Notes under the pieces: generated by a model
The model's database searches: none
Seen by the model: only the letters and a program-made list of their open reading frames with translations
Told to the model about the DNA's origin: nothing
From: Candidatus Gastranaerophilales bacterium
Lineage (GTDB): Bacteria > Cyanobacteriota > Vampirovibrionia > Gastranaerophilales > Gastranaerophilaceae
Direction: 5' to 3'
Length of the DNA: 64,000 bases
Assembly (NCBI GenBank): GCA_944325105.1
Contig: CALUYW010000012.1
Span: 1-64,000 of the forward strand
Made by a program: the position numbers and the translations under genes
Part shown: piece after piece, positions 50,981-52,066 of the stretch
Layout: the number at the start of each line of letters is the position of its first letter
Position numbering within the stretch: the first letter of the stretch is position 1

Positions 50981-51610
50981 TTAGTTGCAGCCGCAAGCTT
51001 TTTGAACAGCGCATTCGCAATCGCATGGGAAATGGGGAACCATGCAGTATTTTGCAAGTTTTTTCATTTTTCTTTTCTCTGCACGGTTAAATCTGTTAAA
51101 GCACTTGATTTGGTCTTTGCAAAGTTGCGCTTTTATTTCTTTTGAGAAACATTTATATTGTTCTTTTGCGTCTTTTCTAATTTCTTTTAATTCTTCTTTT
51201 TGTTCTCTAATTTCAGAGTTGGAAGCACATTGGTTAATCATTTGACAAAGTTTATCTTGTCTGCATTTTGCTTGGTCATGGAGAATTTGCATTTGATTTT
51301 TGTATTTATCATAAATACAATCAATAGCACTGTCTTGTTGAGGGCTTAAGCAGAGGACTTTTTTCATTTTTGCAAATTCATTGTCAAAGAAGCATTTGTT
51401 GTCCTCTTTAATGCTGTCTTCACAAGCTTTTTCTTCACATGGTTTTTCGCATTTTTTCTCTTCGCATCCTTTAGGCGGATTGTATTGTTTGCAACCTTTT
51501 TCACAAGGTGCTTTTGCCATGTTGGTATCGCATGGAACACTGCATGGAGCTGCAAGCGCGCTATGGCATACAAATACTGTTGCTGCGAGCAGAAGTAAAG
51601 TTTTTTTCAT
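50981..51610 (-). CDS. cysteine-rich secreted protein with Spy/CpxP-like LxxxQ element
   Basis: 209 residues. A signal peptide (about 1-20, ending ALAA) is followed by a mature part with about 23 cysteines. The N-terminal block has many CxxxC and PC spacings (CEKGC, CEEKKCEKPCEEKAC). The middle, about 85-175, is helical and charged with LSPQQDSAIDCIYDKY and KEELKEIRKDAKEQYK, reminiscent of the periplasmic chaperone/metal-sensor Spy/CpxP fold. The C-terminus ends CDCECAVQKACGCN. Metal binding or disulfide cross-linking in the envelope is possible. AAGGG precedes the ATG. Confidence 0.8.
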   Translation of the reverse strand: MKKTLLLLAATVFVCHSALAAPCSVPCDTNMAKAPCEKGCKQYNPPKGCEEKKCEKPCEEKACEDSIKEDNKCFFDNEFAKMKKVLCLSPQQDSAIDCIYDKYKNQMQILHDQAKCRQDKLCQMINQCASNSEIREQKEELKEIRKDAKEQYKCFSKEIKAQLCKDQIKCFNRFNRAEKRKMKKLAKYCMVPHFPCDCECAVQKACGCN

Positions 51611-51744: not shown

Positions 51745-51797
51745 AATTAGGCAGTGAGGCAATGCTCACGCAAGAAACTGAAAATCTAATATAATTT

Positions 51798-51870
51798 GCG
51801 TCTGTAGCTCAGCAGGTAGAGCACTCCCCTTTTAAGGGATAGGTCATGCGTTCGAATCGCATCAGACGCA
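51798..51870 (+). tRNA. tRNA-Lys (anticodon TTT)
   Basis: 73 nucleotides folding as a cloverleaf: acceptor GCGTCTG with CAGACGC, D arm GCTC/GAGC, anticodon loop CTTTTAA with TTT at 34-36, variable AGGTC, and T arm ATGCG-TTCGAAT-CGCAT. The first anticodon-stem pair is a C-T mismatch. CCA is not encoded. Leader AATTT and trailer AAATT could extend the acceptor helix. Two tandem repeats containing its 3' end follow directly. Confidence 0.96.
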
Positions 51871-52066
51871 AATTTTTTATGTCTTACATAATATTTATTA
51901 TGCGATTCGAACCTATTGCGATACCGCATTTTTTCACTTCGTTCAAAAAGTCGCATCAGACGCAAATTTTTTATGTCTTACATAATATTTATTATGCGAT
52001 TCGAACCTATTGCGATACCGCATTTTTTCACTTCGTTCAAAAAGTCGCATCAGACGCGAATTTTTT
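51857..52066 (+). repeat. 94-bp tandem repeat built from tRNA-Lys pieces (two identical units plus a partial third)
   Basis: Units 51857-51950 and 51951-52044 are identical over all 94 bases. A third start (52045-52066) matches 21 of the first 22 bases. Each unit begins with TCGCATCAGACGC, the last 13 bases of tRNA-Lys before its discriminator, so the first unit begins inside the tRNA. Each unit also holds ATGCGATTCGAAC, the exact reverse complement of the tRNA T arm; counting flanking bases, the inverted copy equals the tRNA segment ATAGG...TTCGAATCGCAT with seven bases deleted. No transposase or integrase is adjacent. Confidence 0.95.

Follow-up and report, generated by a model that had tools for sequence, protein, structure and literature searches.

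The window analysed here, a stretch of 64,000 nucleotides, lies on contig C12 of the 28-contig, 1.76-Mb genome (G000) of a gut bacterium of the Gastranaerophilales. Its sole tRNA gene, tRNA-Lys(TTT), lies at 51797-51871 on the forward strand, as called by ARAGORN and matched in Rfam with 70.4 bits. A short secreted cysteine-rich open reading frame lies ahead of the tRNA (50981-51610) and is kept in sister species. A tandem array at 51857-52066, with a period of 94, 2.2 copies and a 99% match in TRF, begins within the 3′ end of the tRNA gene and is by a wide margin the top-scoring array in the window. If a unit is counted from the tRNA 3′ end up to where the next copy starts, unit 1 spans 51857-51950 and the identical unit 2 spans 51951-52044, each 94 bp on the forward strand; a partial third unit (52045-52066, same strand) comprises a repeat of the tRNA 3′ end in direct orientation and the start of the spacer. 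Identity between the two units extends over 107 bp, 51857-51963 being the same as 51951-52057. The last 13 bases of the tRNA, TCGCATCAGACGC (tRNA 61-73), are present at 51857, 51951 and 52045, the latter two being the forward-strand direct copies at 51951-51963 and 52045-52057. TRF and exact repeat comparison therefore uphold the original prediction of two identical 94-bp units and a partial third after tRNA-Lys(TTT), each carrying the last 13 tRNA bases.

Each unit has the order TCGCATCAGACGC, AT-rich spacer, ATGCGATTCGAAC, CTAT, hairpin 2, hairpin 1, a single G and the next tRNA 3′ end. The spacer (51870-51899, forward strand; second copy 51964-51993) contains a T-run, which stands alone ahead of the core in the window, whereas most other downstream units hold an intrinsic-terminator-like hairpin at that position. 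ATGCGATTCGAAC (51900-51912, reverse strand; second copy 51994-52006) is an exact, 13-nt inverted copy of the T-arm, the reverse complement of tRNA 54-66 (GTTCGAATCGCAT, at 51850-51862). Together with the following CTAT it equals the reverse complement of tRNA-Lys minus exactly GCATGAC, the seven-base deletion that had been predicted. Hairpin 2 (TGCG-ATAC-CGCA) is at 51917-51928 on the forward strand, with a second copy at 52011-52022, within the stretches 51900-51964 and 51994-52057 that are matched by model R1 (see below). Hairpin 1, of the TTTTT-TCACTTCGTTC-AAAAA type, follows at 51929-51949 (forward strand; second copy 52023-52043) and has a conserved loop and a covarying stem, as seen with models R1 and R2. 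The ATGCGA of the inverted arm can pair with the following TCGCAT as an outer stem, or the arm can pair over 13 bp with the tRNA itself.

The exact window unit was found nowhere else in its own genome, where the two window copies are the only ones, and the 81-bp core singled out in the original prediction is not found as such beside other tRNAs. Exact searches are too strict here, since stems and arms vary with the tRNA and conservation is confined to the hairpin loops. Copies of a tRNA's own pieces were surveyed as 11-base exact matches within 300 bp of the gene, with other tRNA genes masked; for the window's genome this covered the stretches around tRNAs and the contig ends, and 30 tRNAs (36 tRNA matches) were examined. 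Own-tRNA copies were present at 16 of the 30 tRNAs sampled in this genome, at 15/22 in G014 (same genus) and at 13/24 in G039 (another family), and were rare or lacking in G020 (same family, 0/26), G045 (1/24) and G057 (an outgroup, 0/22). The flanks of mismatched tRNAs, used as a control, gave fewer than 0.4 copies per class per 30 tRNAs in G000, against 16/30 for the matching tRNA, so the window copies are not a product of chance; the control stayed below one per class in every genome. The array at tRNA-Lys is confirmed as one case of a genome-wide pattern.

Units downstream of tRNAs (E3) run from a spacer or terminator through an inverted T-arm copy and a two-hairpin core to a direct repeat of the tRNA 3′ end. 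This plan is mirrored in the upstream units (E5), which are built from the D-arm and the tRNA 5′ end: a direct copy of tRNA 1 to ~14, the core, an inverted D-arm copy and a leader motif near TTGAAAATTGAATA, followed by the tRNA. Every unit is thus a two-hairpin core between an inverted terminal tRNA arm and a direct copy of the tRNA terminus. E3 units were located by degenerate search and inspection of tRNA neighbourhoods at Arg-CCT, Pro, Val-GAC, His, Ser, Glu, fMet, Phe and others, and E5 units were seen at Val-TAC, Phe, Arg, Asp, Gly, Leu, Pro, Trp, Ala and others. The majority of E3 units come after the tRNA terminator, the terminator itself being inside the repeated unit, and E5 units are placed in the leader, between the likely promoter and the tRNA. 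No description of tRNA-flanking palindromic units in Melainabacteria was found in the open-access papers searched, and the units, which flank tRNA genes on one side or both, apparently make up a family of small folded DNA elements not described before.

The tRNA neighbourhoods contain other recurrent sequences. A leader motif, TTGAMAATTNAATA, stands directly 5′ of tRNAs across the order, with or without E5 (for example at L035, L050 and L019), and may be a processing or transcription signal. Long E3 variants, ~169 bp at tRNA-Ser and longer at tRNA-His (L079, L057), have a second core, GGTGAGAAYCCTAC...AAATCTTTGATTTYGTGATTT, in common. A third kind of insertion, located between E3 units, is represented by tRNA-Lys pseudo-copies with a folded anticodon-arm insert, CTCCAAAA...TTTTGGAG, of the same loop type (TCGCAAGCTC); these lie at 1-800 of L069 (G007) and ~1590-1770 of L067 (G014), both in reverse complement.

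To describe the core, 14 E3 units from two genera, that of the window and that of G039, were aligned for covariation. Hairpin 1 pairing was 94% versus 64% in shuffled alignments and covariation 0.78 versus 0.20 (0/500 shuffles), the two sides of the stem changing together around a conserved loop of the TCACNAAGTTC type. Model R1 was based on E3 units only and model R2 on both E3 and E5 cores. In G014, R1 picks up the two E5 units of tRNA-Asp, which lie on the opposite strand from the tRNA (E 2.9e-4). Across 146 genomes of the order it matched seven, from 4 of 40 genera, with most matches lying at tRNA 3′ ends. R2 matched three f6 genomes and, within the genus, 14 of the 15 species, with no match in 12 others; G010, the sole species of the genus without an R2 match, still has a diverged unit, and the sensitivity of R2 is limited, as it misses two g48 genomes found by R1. 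An annotated tRNA lies near 23 of the 30 loci matched by R2, and all 23 matches face outward from it: 19 are downstream on the tRNA strand and four upstream on the opposite strand, the tRNA always being 5′ on the strand of the match. The remaining seven loci have no tRNA annotated on the stretch examined, and most of them are near a contig end. The presence of the core on opposite strands at the two gene ends speaks against a cis-acting RNA and for a structure at the DNA level.

Within the genus, 14 of the 15 species carry units, as do three other genera, but close relatives do not. After the same tRNA-Lys, other species of the genus carry either no unit or one to three or more diverged copies. 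Hairpin 1 at tRNA-Lys is swapped wholesale between sister species with its pairing kept (TTTTT..AAAAA, TTTGCAAGC..GCTTACAAA and TTTGCACAC..GTGTGCAAA), and, within the genus, both the E5 core of tRNA-Asp and the E5 unit of tRNA-Lys are retained from species to species. Set against the tRNA of its own genome and the orthologous tRNA elsewhere, the terminus copy fitted its own better in 68 comparisons, equally well in 16 and worse in 11, and the inverted arm did so in 41, 29 and 20, respectively, a less clear contrast than that of the terminus; both tallies count several comparisons per unit and include one-base-shifted positions and truncated units. The better fit of the tRNA-derived ends to the tRNA of their own genome suggests that they either arose beside that tRNA or are refreshed from it.

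The carriers had none of the tested enzymes in common. Neither G000 nor G039 has a Y1 transposase (PF01797), several carriers lack reverse transcriptases and serine recombinases, and the tyrosine recombinases of the carriers G039 and G002 are two Xer-like enzymes only. A reverse transcriptase or serine recombinase was accordingly rejected as the agent, as was a REP/RAYT reading, since G000 has no Y1 (HUH) transposase, and an attC/integron reading, since the carriers are without integron integrase and G039 and G002 have just the two Xer-like enzymes. Serine recombinases do lie near tRNA genes in genomes with and without units (G039 C2, C4 and C6; G000 C1; G020 C7 and C11), which suggests ordinary tRNA-targeted islands besides the E units. 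BLASTN found no copy of the window unit in phage and plasmid collections, and the core pattern had no match in IMG/VR. In GTDB contigs the pattern recovered tRNA-adjoining loci with the expected layout and one Citrobacter site without a nearby tRNA, which we take as chance. A loop-plus-stem motif scan of the window for units off tRNAs, which misses the window's own loop variant, gave two matches, within the 1-7 seen in shuffles.

Short, non-coding, hairpin-forming sequences present many times per genome are known as REP/BIME with RAYT and as the Rickettsia palindromic elements. The units are likewise short non-coding hairpins, but are tied to tRNAs, have ends rewritten for each tRNA and occur in a genome without a Y1/RAYT enzyme. 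The integron attC site is a folded single strand between short complementary ends; the units, unlike attC, are found without integron integrase or gene cassettes and have a tRNA arm as their target.

A more extensive likeness is seen in the 178-bp repeats of E. coli tyrT/tyrV, which, like the units of the window, are tandem and directly 3′ of a tRNA, and repeat the bases of its 3′ end (19 bp in E. coli tyrT, 13 bp in the window). Applied to tyrV/tyrT of E. coli K-12, the same script found an inverted T-arm copy in each unit, a 22-nt alignment with 19 matches and 3 mismatches (0/2000 shuffles as good). At tyrT this inverted copy precedes the known direct 19-bp copy of the tRNA 3′ end, with hairpins between. 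The tyrT repeats differ in being seen here at one locus and on the 3′ side only, and in having a longer core with an annotated ORF, tpr, and a small RNA, rttR; an RNA product of tyrT was reported in 1991 and a protamine-like ORF in 1981, as referenced in PMC11623569 (its references 37 and 38). R2 had no match at the E. coli tyrT locus, where homology of the core was not found, and a search of the window with Rfam gave no match to RtT RNA. The window units share the layout of the tyrT repeats, and we do not count them among the rtT family.

The units might be functional cis-elements or small-RNA genes of tRNA transcripts, acting in processing, as decoys or in stress regulation like RttR, with arms that pair with the tRNA and a match kept by selection. 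Covarying stems with conserved loops would be expected of such elements, and the leader position of E5, the persistence of the tRNA-Asp and tRNA-Lys E5 within the genus, and the annotated small RNA of the similarly organised E. coli repeats all point the same way. However, a cis-acting RNA would not easily tolerate a core whose strand relative to the tRNA transcript switches between the two ends, most E3 units are beyond the terminator, many relatives are entirely without units, and no Rfam family matches. We consider this reading unlikely, if worth keeping in view.

Folded single-stranded DNA is the substrate of integron integrase at attC and of IS200/IS605 enzymes at hairpins. The family could, by analogy, be a non-autonomous mobile element moved in trans by a recombinase that acts on such DNA and takes tRNA arms as its target, a reading that we rate as rather improbable, if likewise worth keeping in view. 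It would account for the conserved hairpin loops, for the GAAC...GTTC at the core ends, which is the universal T-loop motif, and for the spread over many tRNAs in a patchy set of genera (4/40). Against it, the candidate enzymes are missing from carriers as described above, the searches made found no unit off tRNAs, in phages, plasmids or IMG/VR, and to our knowledge an inverted copy of the target is not among the products of attC- or hairpin-acting enzymes.

The att fragments of integrative elements, such as Islander-type islands, resemble the units in that the intact gene has a directly repeated tRNA end close by, attR leaving a copy of the 3′ end (PMC9897764), and some serine recombinases are close to tRNAs in these genomes. 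Such fragments flank kilobases of element DNA, whereas the units are ~80 bp long, carry an inverted copy in addition to the direct repeat, and have a homologous folded core at many tRNAs and at both tRNA ends. The tandem copies are identical, and no integrase is linked to the units or tracks with them; there is none on the window's contig. The original prediction was right that the inverted tRNA fragment is atypical of an att site and that an adjacent integrase is lacking. Its suggestion of repeated site-specific insertion at a tRNA 3′ end finds no support, given the mirror-image units at 5′ ends, the unit ends that follow the adjoining tRNA, and carriers with two Xer-like enzymes as their only tyrosine recombinases. 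With the mirrored 5′ units the reading of the arrays as attL/attR remnants of repeated phage or ICE integration is largely refuted, and we regard it as very improbable; of the other suggestions made, a miniature element comes nearest.

Nearly all carrier genomes are metagenome assemblies, in which the arrays break contigs and their copy numbers are uncertain. At least 10 of ~50 contig ends examined in the window's genome fall within units, some with 77-bp end repeats, so that the copy number of two in the window may be an underestimate, and several contigs of sister species terminate exactly at tRNA-Lys units. Contigs C26 and C27 of G000 (L283 and L282), each 19.1 kb long and ending in tRNA units, are reverse-oriented copies of one sequence (100% over 19,054 bp), so that the bin is inflated by an assembly duplicate. 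Although contig ends and this duplicated pair coincide with arrays, the chance that the layout is an artefact of the metagenome bin is practically nil, as it recurs with diverged sequence inside contigs, in other families and, in separately assembled genomes of other species, after the same tRNA-Lys.

Template-switch hairpins and tandem inversion duplications share with the units a direct-inverted-direct order and homogenised arms; inverted repeats of this kind are known to arise and to be homogenised by template switching (PMC8794818, PMC8604942). These are single mutation events, whereas the units are a conserved family with a shared core. The direct-inverted-direct order, the perfect arms and the two-sided stem changes are as expected of template-switch products, and identical tandem copies fit slippage. 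We therefore favour, tentatively, a host-driven, non-autonomous hairpin repeat that is made, spread and kept matched to its tRNA by replication template switching, with slippage changing its copy number.

Under template switching, which we infer from the layout, the unit would act and evolve at the DNA level. A nascent strand would switch template during replication between the inverted copies and the tRNA, creating the inverted arm and keeping it matched to the tRNA, and would rewrite both sides of a hairpin stem at once. The direct repeats would allow copy number to shift, by slippage or unequal recombination. As a guess, the core would first arrive at each tRNA by a jump, for which motifs shared between tRNA genes, the T-loop GTTC and the D-arm AGCTCAGTTGG, could offer microhomology; a dedicated recombinase would seemingly not be needed. 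Two observations count against template switching: the conserved loops, TCACNAAGTTC and ACAAG, resemble a recognition site, beyond what a purely mutational process needs, and the absence of units from close relatives (0/26 in G020) is left unexplained by it. A bolder and more doubtful possibility is that the units are a programmable DNA parasite of tRNA genes, a protein-less folded core that copies the adjoining terminal arm of the tRNA at either end, always faces outward, re-targets itself and so keeps its match to the host gene; the E. coli tyrT repeats would then be an independent or distant case.

The tyrT repeats have long been a one-locus curiosity, and the same layout is now seen on both sides of about half of the tRNA genes of one genome. 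Its presence in several lineages and absence from close relatives gives comparative power on its origin, on how it follows the tRNA and on any function. The arrays break short-read assemblies at tRNA genes, which is relevant to genomes recovered from metagenomes. If template switching drives them, the arrays would be its natural record at the cell's most conserved genes.
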